Source of the DNA: Mycolicibacterium aromaticivorans JS19b1 = JCM 16368
GTDB lineage: Bacteria > Actinomycetota > Actinomycetes > Mycobacteriales > Mycobacteriaceae
Direction of reading: 5' to 3'
Length of the DNA: 64,000 nucleotides
Assembly (NCBI RefSeq): GCF_000559085.1
Contig: NZ_JALN02000001.1
Coordinates: forward strand, 2,790,001 to 2,854,000
Positions 7,583 to 45,575 of this stretch are shown one piece after another (position 1 is the stretch's first letter; each line of letters opens with the position of its first letter). The notes beneath the pieces are model-generated. The model had not been told where the DNA came from. It saw only the letters and a program-made list of their open reading frames with translations, and searched no databases. A program made the translations under genes and the position numbers.

Positions 7583-8817
7583 CCGCGGCGGCCCGCACCA
7601 CCACCAGGATCGGCGCCCTGCTCGCCGTCCTCGGTCCCGGACTGCTGGCCGGGCTGTCCGACGACGATCCGGCGGGTATCACCACCTACTCGGTGCTCGG
7701 TGCAGACCACGGCTACCAGCTGCTGTGGGTGCTGCTGCTGTCCACCGTCGCGCTGATCGTCTTCCACAGTCTGGCCGCCAGGATGGGTGTGGTGACCGGC
7801 CAAGGATTGATCGGGTTGGTGAGACAGCGCTACGGCGTCCGGGTGGGCGCAGCCATTCTGGCCGCCCTGGTGATCGCCAACGTCGGAACCACATGCGCCG
7901 AATTCGCCGGTATTGCAGCAGGATTCGAACTCTTCGGCATCAGTCGATACATCAGTGTTCCCGCCGCGGCGGTCGCCGTCTCACTGCTGGTGCTGCGCGG
8001 CAGCTTCCACCGCGTCGAGCGGCTGCTGCTGGCGTTGTCCACGGTCTTCCTCGCCTACGTCGCCTCCGGGTTTCTGGCCAAACCCGACTGGGGGGCCGCA
8101 CTGCACGGGACGTTCGTGCCCACGATGCCGATGACCGGGCCCGCGATCGCCATCGTGACGGCCACTCTGGGCACCACGCTGGCGCCGTGGGGGTTGTCGT
8201 TCATGCAGTCCTACGCCGTCGACAAGAAACTCCGTACCGACGACCTCGCGCTGGAGCGAGTGGACGTGATCACCGGCGCGGTGCTGACCGGTGTGATCGG
8301 GTTCTTCGTGGTGGTCGCCTGCGCGGCGACCCTGCACCGCGACGGGCGGGGCATCACCGATGCCGCCGATGCGGCGGTCGCCCTTCAACCACTGGCCGGC
8401 GAGGCCGCGGGCACGCTGTTCGCCGTCGGCCTGATCGGCGCGGCGTTCCTGGCCGCCTCCATCCTGCCGCTGTCGACGGCCTACGCCGTCTGCGAATACG
8501 CCGGCGTGGAGGCTGCGATCGACGATCCCTACCGCGAAGCCCGCACGTTCTATCTGACGTACGGGATCGTCACGGTGGTTGGCGCCGCCATCGTCCTGGC
8601 CCCCAATGCACCGCTGGTGCCAATCCTGGTGGGCACCCAGGTACTCAATGCGGTGCTGTTGGTGCCGCTGATGGTCGCGATGATCGGGCTGGGCCGCGAT
8701 CGAGAACTCATGGGCCGATTCGCGATGCGCCGTCCCGGGACGATCGTCTACAGCGTCACCACGGCCGTGGTCGTGGTCTGTGTGGCGGCACTGGGCATCA
8801 CGACTGCCTTCGGCTGA
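7579..8817 (+). CDS. NRAMP-related divalent metal transporter
   Basis: A 412-residue membrane protein of about eleven helices with the NRAMP fold. The TM1 motif, DPGN in classical NRAMPs, reads DPAG (residues 30-33). In TM6, near residue 200, the usual Met-Pro-His is replaced by Ala-Pro-Trp (GTTLAPWGLSF). Loss of the metal-selecting methionine is a feature of NRAMP-related magnesium transporters, so Mg2+ or Mn2+ is more likely than Fe2+. The overlapping MgtE-N-like gene supports magnesium. Transport direction and ion have not been shown; the prediction rests on motifs and context. Confidence 0.87.
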   Translation: MTAAARTTTRIGALLAVLGPGLLAGLSDDDPAGITTYSVLGADHGYQLLWVLLLSTVALIVFHSLAARMGVVTGQGLIGLVRQRYGVRVGAAILAALVIANVGTTCAEFAGIAAGFELFGISRYISVPAAAVAVSLLVLRGSFHRVERLLLALSTVFLAYVASGFLAKPDWGAALHGTFVPTMPMTGPAIAIVTATLGTTLAPWGLSFMQSYAVDKKLRTDDLALERVDVITGAVLTGVIGFFVVVACAATLHRDGRGITDAADAAVALQPLAGEAAGTLFAVGLIGAAFLAASILPLSTAYAVCEYAGVEAAIDDPYREARTFYLTYGIVTVVGAAIVLAPNAPLVPILVGTQVLNAVLLVPLMVAMIGLGRDRELMGRFAMRRPGTIVYSVTTAVVVVCVAALGITTAFG

Positions 8818-30982: not shown

Positions 30983-31438
30983 ATGTCGCCCAAGATCGCC
31001 ACCGCCGACTCCGTGGACCTCGACGCGCTGCTCGAGTTCGTCCGACCCCGTCACCGCATGGTGCTGACCACCTTCCGCGCCGATTGTTCGCTGCAGAGTT
31101 CCCCGGTGACCGGCGGCGTGGACGAGCAGGGCCGCCTGGTGATCGCCAGCTATCCGCGTCGCGCCAAGTCGGTGAACATCCGCCGCACCGGGCGCGCCAG
31201 TGTGGTGGTGCTCTCCGACGAGTTCAACGACGCCTACGTGCAGATCGACGGGCCCGCCGAGGTGATCGACCTGCCCGACGCCGTGGAGCCGCTGGTCGAC
31301 TACTTCCGCGCGGTCGCGGGGGAGCACCCGGATTGGGACGAGTATCGGGAAGCGATGGTCAAGCAGGGCAAGTGCCTGATCCGGGTCACTCCGCAGCGCT
31401 GGGGTCCGGTGGCGACGGGTGGGTTCCCGCCGTCGTGA
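30983..31438 (+). CDS. PPOX-class (F420/FMN-dependent) protein
   Basis: A 151-residue split-barrel protein of the pyridoxamine-oxidase-like family, probably the F420-binding TIGR03618-like group. It has LTTFRADCSLQSSPVTGGVDEQGRLVIAS in the first strands and KSVNIRRTGRASVVVLSDEF, the usual cofactor-binding stretch. A TAGAGT box seven bases before the ATG indicates leaderless transcription. The end overlaps the convergent ferredoxin-like gene by 53 bases. Cofactor and substrate are unknown; mycobacteria have many paralogues that reduce varied compounds. Confidence 0.86.
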   Translation: MSPKIATADSVDLDALLEFVRPRHRMVLTTFRADCSLQSSPVTGGVDEQGRLVIASYPRRAKSVNIRRTGRASVVVLSDEFNDAYVQIDGPAEVIDLPDAVEPLVDYFRAVAGEHPDWDEYREAMVKQGKCLIRVTPQRWGPVATGGFPPS

Positions 31439-32309
31439 GCGAGGCCAGTGTGTAGAGCCGCACCCGGCCCGGCACGGTGGCGTGGCATTGCGACAGCAGT
31501 GGCTCCGAGAGCTCCTCGTTGAGCACCACCTCGACCGGGGCGGGGTCGGCGTCGAGCACCACCCGGATGGTGCCGTCACCCGGCTCGACACTCAACGGCG
31601 GGAAGGCGGCGATGCGGTCGTCGCCGAACTCCTCGCGGGCGAAATGCTGTGCGGCCTGGACAGCGTGGGGAAGCGACGTGCGTCCGCGCAGGTACCGGTT
31701 GTCCAGCCGACCGTCCAGGTAACGGCTCACCAGCTCGGCCGCGTCGGCCTGGTCCACCCGCCCGTAACACAGCCCCGTGGGCAGCACCAGCATGGTCGCC
31801 GCGAACCGATCACCGCCCAGATGGGAGCACTCCCAGGCTAATTCGGGATACGCAGCCGAGATCGCCGAAGCAGCCGACCGGCCGCGCACCGCGCAGCACA
31901 TGTCGTGGCGGCCGTGGGCGCAGACCGCGACGAGCGGGTCGGTCGCGGCGGTGCCGTCGGATCCATCCAGTGCGATGTCGAGGTACTCGCGCGGATCGGT
32001 GACCTCGCCGCCGTGCAACACTTCGCCTCCGACGGCGCACTGCGCGATGAACCAGCGCCACCGTGGCGTGGCCTTCCGGCGGCCGTGCTTGCGGATCGCC
32101 GCGATCCGCATGCCCGCTGCCTCTGCGCGCCGCACGACGGCCAGCCCCAGCTGCGGGTCGATACAGGCAGGCGAGTCCAGGAACGCCGAACGTCCCCAGC
32201 CACCTGCCAATTCGAGCAGCAGCCACGATGTACCCGCCGACGCCGTCCCGTACATCGGGTCGTTGCGGGCCAGCGACTGGTCGCTGCAGCCCTGCCCGGC
32301 TCTGCTCAT
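31386..32309 (-). CDS. Sucrase/ferredoxin-like (thioredoxin-fold 2Fe-2S) protein
   Basis: A 307-residue protein of the sucrase/ferredoxin-like (Apd1-type) family. Candidate cluster ligands are the cysteines in VCAHGRHDMCCAVRG (130, 138, 139) and the histidine in CSHLGGDRFAATM. The family is related to thioredoxin-like ferredoxins and is thought to bind a 2Fe-2S cluster. It overlaps the JmjC-like gene by four bases, so it is the last gene of the peptide operon and could supply electrons to the oxygenase or keep its iron reduced. That role is an inference from context. Confidence 0.87.
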   Translation of the reverse strand: MSRAGQGCSDQSLARNDPMYGTASAGTSWLLLELAGGWGRSAFLDSPACIDPQLGLAVVRRAEAAGMRIAAIRKHGRRKATPRWRWFIAQCAVGGEVLHGGEVTDPREYLDIALDGSDGTAATDPLVAVCAHGRHDMCCAVRGRSAASAISAAYPELAWECSHLGGDRFAATMLVLPTGLCYGRVDQADAAELVSRYLDGRLDNRYLRGRTSLPHAVQAAQHFAREEFGDDRIAAFPPLSVEPGDGTIRVVLDADPAPVEVVLNEELSEPLLSQCHATVPGRVRLYTLASLTTAGTHPSPPDPSAAE

Positions 32310-33517
32310 CGGGAAGGTGACGGGACGACGACTGCTTCCCTGAGCAGGCGCCGGATCAGAACCGCACCGTCAGCGGGATCGAGCCCCGGTAGGGCGGCGG
32401 CCCGCACCACCCCGCCGCGGTGCAGTGCGCGCAGCGCCTCGGCGCAGGATATGGGGAACGTAATGGTCCGGTCGGGAAGCTGCAGCGCAACCCGGCCGCC
32501 TTCGGAACTGTTCAGGCGGGCCGTCAAGCCGCGGCGCCAGCACACGTCGACCTCGGCGTCGGCGGCGGCGGACAGCGTGGCCAACGGCCGGACCGCGACG
32601 GGTCGGGTCAGTCCGGCGTGCCGGTCGGACAGTCGCGCGGCCGCGCCGGTGCTCAGGGCTGCCGCGTTGTCCCGTAGTGCCGCTACCACCTCGGCCATCA
32701 CCTTGGTGACCGTGGCGACCGTCTCGTCGTGATCGGCGGCCGCGATACCCATCGGCAGGGATCGGCGGAACGCCTCGACGGTGGACAGTTCGTCGAGCAC
32801 CGCGCGAGCCACGTCGAGACAGGTGGTGGCCGAGACACCGATGGTCAGGTGAATCGATGTGGTGTCGAGCGCCTGCGCCGCGTGCAGCCAGCCTCTGGGC
32901 AGGTACAGGGCGTCTCCGGCGTTCAGCACCGTGTCGATCACCGGCTCGCCGCGGACCCGTTCGCCGATTGCCGCCCGGTGCTGAGTCCACGGCTGGGACG
33001 GCAGCGGATGGGCGTGCACCGGTTCGTGCACCACCCAGCGCTTCTGTCCGGATACCTGCAGTACGAAGACGTCGTGCACGTCGTAATGCGGGTCGAAACC
33101 ACGGTTGCCCGGCGGCGTGATGTAGGCATTCGCTTGCGCGGGATGTCCGAGATCGTCGACGGCGTCGCGGACAAAGTCGATCAGCGGCGGCCACAGCCGG
33201 TGCAGACCTTGGAGAACAATCGTTGCGCCTGAGGCGATTTCGGCGAGAACCTTCGCCGAGTCGACCTGATCGGCGATCTCTGCGCCGAACCCGGCCGAGC
33301 CGAGGTAGCAGTCCTTGGCGAGGATCTCGCCATCGCGAGCCAACCTGATGAACGGCGCTCTTATGCCGCGCTCGGCAATCAACTCGTCGACCGCCCCGGG
33401 AGACAGCAGGTCGCTGAAATCCCGGGGCAGGTCGACGGCTGTGCTGAGAAGCGGCCTGCGGCCCCAGTACTGTTCGGCGAACGTCCGCGCGTCGACCGCA
33501 CTGCAGCGGCTCAGCAT
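32306..33517 (-). CDS. JmjC/cupin-4 2-oxoglutarate oxygenase-like protein
   Basis: A 403-residue protein of the ROXA/MINA/NO66-like JmjC group. The iron ligands are HYD (His144, Asp146) and the distal His212 in RGWLHAA, with a double-stranded beta-helix between them (VFVLQVSGQKRWVV; NAGDALYLPRGW). A C-terminal winged-helix-like part follows, as in ribosomal oxygenases that hydroxylate arginine or histidine of ribosomal proteins. Here it lies 11 bases after a 61-codon repeat-peptide gene, which is the obvious candidate substrate. It overlaps the ferredoxin-like gene, so oxygenase and electron carrier are coupled. Confidence 0.9.
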   Translation of the reverse strand: MLSRCSAVDARTFAEQYWGRRPLLSTAVDLPRDFSDLLSPGAVDELIAERGIRAPFIRLARDGEILAKDCYLGSAGFGAEIADQVDSAKVLAEIASGATIVLQGLHRLWPPLIDFVRDAVDDLGHPAQANAYITPPGNRGFDPHYDVHDVFVLQVSGQKRWVVHEPVHAHPLPSQPWTQHRAAIGERVRGEPVIDTVLNAGDALYLPRGWLHAAQALDTTSIHLTIGVSATTCLDVARAVLDELSTVEAFRRSLPMGIAAADHDETVATVTKVMAEVVAALRDNAAALSTGAAARLSDRHAGLTRPVAVRPLATLSAAADAEVDVCWRRGLTARLNSSEGGRVALQLPDRTITFPISCAEALRALHRGGVVRAAALPGLDPADGAVLIRRLLREAVVVPSPSR

Positions 33518-33528
33518 GGAATCGCCGG

Positions 33529-33714
33529 TCAGGCTGAGCCGTCGGCGCCGCCGTCGTGGCCCTCTGGGTTCGAGCCACCGTCGGCGGGACCCTCACCACC
33601 ACCGCCGGCTGTTCCGTCGGCACCACCGTCGTGGCCTTCGGGATTGGACCCACCGTCGGCGGTGCCTTCGCCGCCCGGGGTGGAGGTCGTGATGTCGTCG
33701 TCGTCGAGCGCCAT
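33529..33714 (-). CDS. Acidic Gly-rich peptide with two 23-residue repeats (candidate RiPP precursor)
   Basis: A 61-residue peptide with a leader-like start MALDDDDITTSTP, then two copies of GGEGxADGGSNPEGHDGG continuing ADGxA (residues 14-36 and 39-61). The repeats differ only at two residues (Thr/Pro and Thr/Ser), yet their DNA differs at 14 of 69 bases, 12 of them silent, showing selection on the amino-acid sequence. GAAAGGA lies six bases before the ATG. It has no cysteine, aromatic residue or signal peptide. Its position right before the JmjC-like oxygenase gene suggests it is modified at Asn, Asp or His. A structural or regulatory role is possible. Confidence 0.75.
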   Translation of the reverse strand: MALDDDDITTSTPGGEGTADGGSNPEGHDGGADGTAGGGGEGPADGGSNPEGHDGGADGSA

Positions 33715-33943
33715 GAAAGATCCTTTCTCGAACCGCAAAAGCGCGGCGCAGTGTGATGCAGGGCTAGGTGCGAACGGAGTTGCCGCACCGACACTGAATG
33801 AAACCGGCGGAAGCGAGTGGATGTGTCCGAGTGGCCGCGGCATTTGGGTTTTGCCCGGCCGTCCGCGCTCGTCACTCCGCGCTGTGTTTGAGGACGTACC
33901 GAACGGGCATGCGGGCACCTGACCCCAAGTGGAGGAGGATTCC

Positions 33944-44814: not shown

Positions 44815-45575
44815 GCCTTCGACTCCAGCGCGTCGTCGCGGACCGGACGGTCCGCAAGCTCCTCGGCGCGGCCGAACAGCAGCGGGTAGAGCGCACCCGC
44901 CAGGGCCGCGCCGGCGAGCGGCGCCAGCCAGAACACCCAGAGCTGGGCAGGTGCGCCGTTGCCGTTGAAGAACGCGACACCCATCGAGCGGGCCGGGTTC
45001 ACCGACGTGTTCGAGATCGGGATCGAGATCAGGTGGATGAGCGTCAGCATCAAGCCGATTGCCAAACCCGCGAAGCCTTTTGGTGCCCGGTCGTCGGTGG
45101 CGCCCAGGATCACCAGCAGGAACAGGAAGGTCAGAAGCGCCTCGGCGATCACTACCGCGGCCAGCGAGTAGTGGAACGGTGAATGCTCACCGAATCCGTT
45201 GGCGGCCATGTGGCCGGTCGGCGTGAAACCGGCTCTGCCCTTGGCGATCCAGTAGATCACCGCGCCGGCGGCCAGGCCACCGACAACCTGCACCGCCCAG
45301 TACGCCGGTAGCGCCTTCCACTCGACGCGCCGTGCCAGGGCCGCGCCGAACGTGACTGCCGGGTTGAAGTGGCCACCCGAAATCGTTCCGAACGCATAGA
45401 CGCCCACCAGCACGGTGAGGCCGAAAGCCAGCGAAACGCCGAGGAATCCGATGCCGACGGAATTGTCTTCAGCGGGGTCCGCGGCGAATACCGCTGCTCC
45501 GCAACCTCCGAAAACCAACACGAATGTGCCGATGAATTCTGCGGCCAGCCGGTGCGCCATCGTTGGAGCTCTCAC
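44811..45575 (-). CDS. aqpZ: Aquaporin (AqpZ-like)
   Basis: A 254-residue MIP-family channel with six helices and two NPA loops, HFNPAV near residue 73 and SVNPARS near 195. The aromatic/arginine filter residues around them ([21 protein letters not shown]) match water-selective AqpZ. The GTG is preferred because AAGAAGGG lies seven bases upstream; an ATG five codons later is closer to the E. coli N-terminus but has no ribosome site. It is convergent with dps by a four-base overlap. Confidence 0.93.

Follow-up and report, generated by a model that had tools for sequence, protein, structure and literature searches.

A 64,000-nucleotide stretch of the Mycolicibacterium aromaticivorans JS19b1 genome (contig NZ_JALN02000001.1, positions 2,790,001 to 2,854,000; the window) raises the question of why a gene of only 61 codons lies directly ahead of a JmjC oxygenase gene, and what the two might make together with the ferredoxin-like gene that follows. 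An initial annotation proposed that the small gene encodes a precursor whose repeats are hydroxylated by the oxygenase. Our comparisons strongly support the reading of the peptide and oxygenase as a precursor-enzyme pair: in many actinobacteria a tiny Asp-rich repeat peptide gene travels with an oxygenase that seems suited to modify that peptide. The operon is real and widespread, and probably defines a new family of ribosomally synthesized and post-translationally modified peptides (RiPPs). The three genes run on the minus strand in the order peptide, JmjC, and Suc_Fer-like gene, with the following features:

33779..33804, minus strand: promoter-like element GTTT-N15-CGGCAAC, 90 nt ahead of the peptide start, resembling the SigF type
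33721..33728, minus strand: Shine-Dalgarno-like ribosome-binding site AGAAAGGA, read from the sequence
33529..33714, minus strand: putative precursor peptide gene, 61 aa (ATG at 33714, TGA at 33529; 61 codons plus stop), encoding MALDDDDITTSTPG followed by two repeats
33673..33714, minus strand: leader-like N-terminus, residues 1-14, with DDDDITT, a motif kept while the core changes
33607..33672, minus strand: repeat 1, GEGTADGGSNPEGHDGGADGTA, residues 15-36
33532..33597, minus strand: repeat 2, GEGPADGGSNPEGHDGGADGSA, residues 40-61
32306..33517, minus strand: JmjC 2-oxoglutarate oxygenase gene, 403 aa (Pfam JmjC_2)
32309..32620, minus strand: winged-helix domain at the C-terminus of the oxygenase (residues 300-403), like a RiPP recognition element (RRE) in its predicted structure
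31386..32309, minus strand: Suc_Fer-like thioredoxin-fold [2Fe-2S] ferredoxin gene, 307 aa (PF06999)

These coordinates agree with the gene structure first described, namely a 61-codon gene with its own ribosome site, an 11-base gap (33528-33518) ahead of the JmjC ATG at 33517, and a four-base overlap (ATGA at 32309-32306) of the JmjC stop with the ferredoxin start. A recount of the two 23-residue repeats likewise returned differences at 14 of 69 bases and at two residues. The initial annotation took this pattern to mean that the amino acid sequence is conserved against drift, which holds beyond the window: paired repeats within one gene, compared across the readable named loci introduced below, show synonymous differences (pS) of 0.361 versus nonsynonymous differences (pN) of 0.026. 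The window peptide contains no Cys and matches no family in Pfam or NCBIfam.

Do the three genes belong together? Across the genus, with the genome of the window counted among the 198 compared, a close JmjC (identity of at least 64%; in G122 in two fragments, at 79 and 62%), the peptide, and the ferredoxin are each present in 69, and these are the identical 69 genomes. Oxygenase and ferredoxin kept with the peptide gone, the pattern that would have spoken against a precursor, was found in 0 of the 69. The association is beyond chance because the three genes share the identical 69 of 198 genomes and the repeats show the pS and pN values given above. A second JmjC type, at 28-38% identity and without a peptide, is the sole JmjC in another 30 of the 198 genomes (e.g., L196 and L200) and is listed in none of the 69 operon genomes, nine candidates having been scored per genome.

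The linkage extends beyond the genus. The named JmjC loci are the best 80 of 584 relatives, and therefore lean toward close kin; they come from Mycobacteriaceae, Gordonia, Williamsia, Antrihabitans, Dietzia, Rhodococcus, Rhodococcoides, Cellulomonas, Herbiconiux, Curtobacterium, Subtercola, Agromyces, Leifsonia, and others. Repeat DNA lies upstream of JmjC in all 80 and a repeat-bearing frame directly upstream in 78; the remaining two keep their repeats, L095 with a shortened C run and L146 interrupted by an N run. Together with L087 and L122, in which the readable frame begins within the repeats, these make four of 80 loci that appear broken or masked, and the L138 peptide, close to a contig end, lacks a start. 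The ferredoxin is downstream of JmjC in 75 of the 80. In L095 (about 7747-8001), the C run of the third repeat is one base shorter, so that peptide and JmjC share a reading frame; this may be a sequencing error or a natural fusion.

Across 394 genomes of the class, a peptide profile matched 39, belonging to 16 of 137 genera, and a JmjC profile scored above 365 bits in 63, which include all 39. Asp-rich repeats were read out upstream in 22 of the 24 JmjC genomes missed by the peptide profile (L167-L190), so that an Asp-repeat peptide is present in 61 of the 63 JmjC genomes. At L182 and L184, from related genomes, a nonrepeat acidic peptide ending in GPTVEPGA or GPTIEPGA precedes JmjC, and a ferredoxin was not found nearby. 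When 26 loci of other genera were fetched by way of the peptide, JmjC was directly downstream in all 26 and the ferredoxin was present in 20. Weaker JmjC matches were sampled at 16 chosen loci (L191-L206, from 15 of 49 weaker class genomes): six have an Asp-rich peptide and a ferredoxin, three (L195, L199, and L203) lack a ferredoxin and carry a short peptide bearing a single D-[S/T]-D-G-T-D, and seven have neither peptide nor ferredoxin by the searches used. The peptide of those three loci has another leader (EVEVEDLxEVTSRDVTAG), ends in D-[S/T]-D-G-T-D-x-S-S-D-F-I, and lies 76-108 nt upstream of a JmjC gene whose product has about 29-32% identity, with an alpha/beta-hydrolase or oligopeptidase-like frame further upstream; it is a second JmjC-peptide type.

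A search of the phylum returned matches in 36 of 246 genomes. We read 21 loci, with L225 duplicating L192: an acidic peptide is upstream in 20 and a ferredoxin is present in 19 (weakly in L222); the L235 peptide is of a different repeat type, L224 is cut by a contig end, and seven further matches beyond the 30 loci retrieved lie outside these counts. The peptide-oxygenase system is found in other classes of the phylum too, where the Asp-rich cores differ. The three-gene order that the initial annotation proposed to seek in mycobacterial genomes is present there and is not limited to them.

The peptides have the build of RiPP precursors: a short gene adjoins a putative modifying enzyme, and a conserved leader is joined to a varied core. 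A conserved N-terminus with a varying number of repeats had been predicted and was seen, with one unit in two, two in 12, three in 63, and four in one of the 78 readable named loci. DGGADG follows the His position of NPxGH in 219 of 219 units, although the search pattern nearly required DGGADG. More distant linkers and cores run through TPGQH, EGTPGVQ, AGTPGVH, and pure DGGA runs to D-x-D-G-T-D and DADSTDA, and the acidic leader [D/E][I/M]xT is kept in most of the distant peptides despite the change of core. Searched with a single regular expression, 89 of 114 DGG-type peptides and 23 of 28 DxD-type peptides carry the leader motif, against 7.9 and 1.9 for shuffled leaders; one DGG subclade has lost it.

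With the core cut at the first repeat marker, Asp is in all 27 DxD-type cores, alongside Ala (27), Thr (26), Ser (26), Asn (3), and His (2), and in all 69 script-readable DGG-type cores, alongside His (60) and Asn (44). Under a broader definition (everything after residue 14), 142 peptides, one duplicate (L192/L225) included and nine DGG-type peptides left out, gave Asp in 142, His in 107, and Asn in 90. The core residue counts rest on part of the peptides, because the two automatic peptide readers, which found 84 and 102 of 167, missed many visible DGG-type frames; their totals are therefore unused as presence counts. In a tree of 109 enzymes, a single group of 70 rows (support 91) takes in those with DGG cores; nearly all of those with DxD cores fall in a 30-row group (support 96) and the pair L188 and L189 (support 98). 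Label changes were fewer than in all 500 shuffles, and several deep forks are unresolved; many labels of "none" are peptides missed by the reader (e.g., L074, L076, L078, L080, L082-L086, and L095), and the DxD label of L184 is an artifact. On this tree, core type largely follows enzyme phylogeny.

The oxygenase matches Pfam JmjC_2 (9e-29), H144-x-D146...H212 and K159 are invariant in 28 aligned JmjC sequences, and the JmjC_2 fold is accompanied by the helical and winged-helix domains of the ribosomal oxygenases (ROX). The C-terminal winged helix, modeled with a predicted local distance difference test score (pLDDT) of 87.4, is RRE-like in its predicted structure: after NO66/MINA53, its structure matches include TbiB1 (7.4), PqqD (7.2), MccB (7.2), ThcOx (7.1), and PbtF (6.6). 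A Pfam RRE sequence search of the oxygenase gave zero matches.

We consider a minimal RiPP operon the probable explanation. The acidic N-terminal DDDI-x-T leader would be bound by the RRE-like winged helix of the JmjC enzyme, which would then use Fe(II), 2-oxoglutarate, and O2 to hydroxylate Asp in each Asp-rich repeat, most likely at C-beta. We infer hydroxylation of the repeats, and favor Asp as the site because it is the functional side chain that both core types share. The initial annotation had named Asn, His, or Asp as the site; the choice can be narrowed, with Asp present in all 27 DxD-type cores, against two with His and three with Asn. The product would stay inside the cell, since neither a conserved exporter nor a protease was found beside the operon, and its arrayed side chains of beta-hydroxy-Asp and Asp might bind a metal ion such as iron or calcium. 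In siderophores, beta-hydroxy-Asp serves as a bidentate metal ligand, and some calcium-binding lipopeptides contain it as well, a precedent that favors metal binding as a use, if a speculative one. The co-encoded [2Fe-2S] protein could perform redox chemistry tied either to the bound metal or to the oxygenase.

A rather unlikely alternative is that the enzyme, in the manner of NO66, hydroxylates His, namely that of NPxGHDGG in each repeat, with Asp serving only as recognition element or metal ligand. NO66 is the closest solved relative of the window JmjC, and His occupies that position in 215 of 219 units of the readable named loci (Ala in three, Gln in one); however, the scarcity of His in DxD-type cores counts against it, and Gln replaces His in several DGG-type cores (L067, L075, and L079), a natural Q-containing example being EGTPGVQDGGADG. 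Moreover, Ser421 of NO66, the residue that holds the substrate His according to PMC9994133, aligns with Gly227, which is invariant in the 28 sequences. A resemblance between NPEGH and the NPVEH loop of Rpl8 was also considered but did not hold up, as His216, the residue hydroxylated in Rpl8, sits in GGGNHQH.

The downstream gene bears on a second alternative. Its product matches PF06999 (6.5e-16; 59.4 bits versus a cutoff of 34.9), the Suc_Fer-like family profile has a weak match in the PDB to a 2Fe-2S ferredoxin (E 0.0017), and C130-x-H132, H135-D136-x-C138-C139, and H163-x-G-G-D-R-F-A are kept in 20 of 20 aligned ferredoxins. The thioredoxin-like ferredoxins Apd1 and Aim32 use C-X8-C...H-X-G-G-H, as PMC11138216 reports. 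The window protein shares the C-X8-C as C130-X8-C139 and lacks the bis-His ligand motif, the second His being Asp167 in all 20 (H163-x-G-G-D167); cluster ligation may for that reason differ from that of Apd1/Aim32. This protein could be the electron partner if Asp is carried beyond hydroxylation, for example to aminomalonate, dehydro-Asp, or a cross-link. Such chemistry is reported for SmaO/SmaX, where hydroxylated Asp goes on to be converted to aminomalonate (PMC13097080), and a dedicated redox protein is indeed co-encoded, but with a single conserved oxygenase found in the locus and several loci having no ferredoxin nearby, we regard this course as quite unlikely. No replacement for an absent ferredoxin was common to the 16 loci inspected by eye.

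A third alternative, in which the peptide works unmodified as an acidic metal-binding or regulatory product and is merely co-regulated with a JmjC enzyme that targets a ribosomal protein, is improbable: the ROX fold, the source names L16 Arg81 hydroxylase or NO66 on many actinobacterial database relatives, and D-x-D-G cores, which we take to resemble calcium loops, would fit it, but the peptide-enzyme linkage across the phylum, the broad tracking of enzyme clade by core type, the RRE-like domain, and a leader that is conserved as the core changes do not.

Neighbor clustering covered frames of at least 100 residues around 137 loci (the peptide, below this size, was read separately) and recovered the JmjC frame at 111 loci, the ferredoxin at 68, and, at 69, a frame that for the most part runs antisense to JmjC, with every other cluster confined to 16 loci or fewer; gene calls were crude, because only frames of that size were covered and the JmjC frame was placed in 111 of 137. 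No protease or transporter among such frames was common to more than 16 of the 137 loci, and smaller or elsewhere-encoded ones may exist or be unneeded. A GTTT-N14..17-GGGCAA-like element is present in 31 of 35 mycobacterial and nine of 10 Rhodococcus-clade upstream regions (shuffle means, 0.4 and 0.09) and in 0 of 31 other upstream regions; these counts are post hoc, because the pattern was loosened after inspecting sequences, a first regular expression with wrong spacing having found eight of 45 and 0 of 31. The element resembles the SigF promoter type, and this resemblance suggests expression under stress or in stationary phase. As to control by iron, no IdeR box was found, the best mismatches in 76 upstream regions averaging 9.46 versus 9.34 for regions shuffled once each. 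Elsewhere in the window (45209-45287, minus strand), ARAGORN called a tRNA-Ser with anticodon ACT, unusual for Ser; it is possibly a degenerate or mobile-element tRNA.

Should the minimal operon hold, it would establish a RiPP family whose defining feature is one JmjC enzyme, offer a clean two-component system in which repeat cores are hydroxylated at Asp, possibly add an intracellular metal-binding peptide of soil actinobacteria and environmental mycobacteria, and give a lead on the origin of eukaryotic ribosomal oxygenases. Numerous actinobacterial database entries that a source labels L16 Arg81 hydroxylase or NO66 may instead be peptide modifiers whose substrates are known and adjacent. A bolder, rather doubtful extension is that these peptides are phylum-wide poly-beta-hydroxy-aspartate carriers or stores of metal (iron), produced by a JmjC enzyme that has its own leader-binding domain and served by a dedicated [2Fe-2S] reductase, and that the winged helix of the eukaryotic NO66 and MINA53 is a leader-binding relic, so that ribosome hydroxylation arose from peptide-modifying enzymes.

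We found no published account of a peptide, JmjC, and ferredoxin operon in the open-access literature, with subscription papers mostly outside the search. Bufferins, ribosomal peptide metallophores reportedly described by Leprevost in 2024, are said to be Cys peptides that are modified by multinuclear nonheme iron-dependent oxidative enzymes (MNIOs) and bind copper; the window peptide would resemble them, speculatively, in binding metal and differs in having no Cys. PesHI, reportedly an MNIO-type enzyme, and SmaO/SmaX provide beta-hydroxy-Asp in ribosomal peptides, as would be the case here, on different precursor families. PMC13060819 and PMC13097080 describe this Asp hydroxylation for PesHI and SmaO. 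PMC12710340, in the portions available, mentions JmjC proteins whose folds are RRE-like, and bacterial homologues set in RiPP-like surroundings, but does not name the present system. NO66, MINA53, and YcfD (JmjC_2, PF08007) share with the window JmjC the whole-length fold of JmjC barrel, helices, and winged helix, as well as HxD...H and Lys, but the ROX enzymes act on ribosomal proteins whose genes lie elsewhere, whereas the window JmjC adjoins a precursor-like peptide and has Gly in place of the substrate-His serine of NO66. As in biphenomycin-type RiPPs (BipG/BpmG and PbsQ), a JmjC enzyme sits in a cluster that is here putatively of RiPP type, and BipG reportedly hydroxylates ornithine (PMC12707348 and PMC12257519); this JmjC hydroxylase precedent supports the minimal-operon reading. 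In biphenomycin-type clusters, the JmjC protein is one tailoring enzyme among MNIO, radical S-adenosylmethionine, arginase, and peptidase proteins, whereas here it is the sole conserved modifying enzyme found, putatively acting on Asp-rich repeats.
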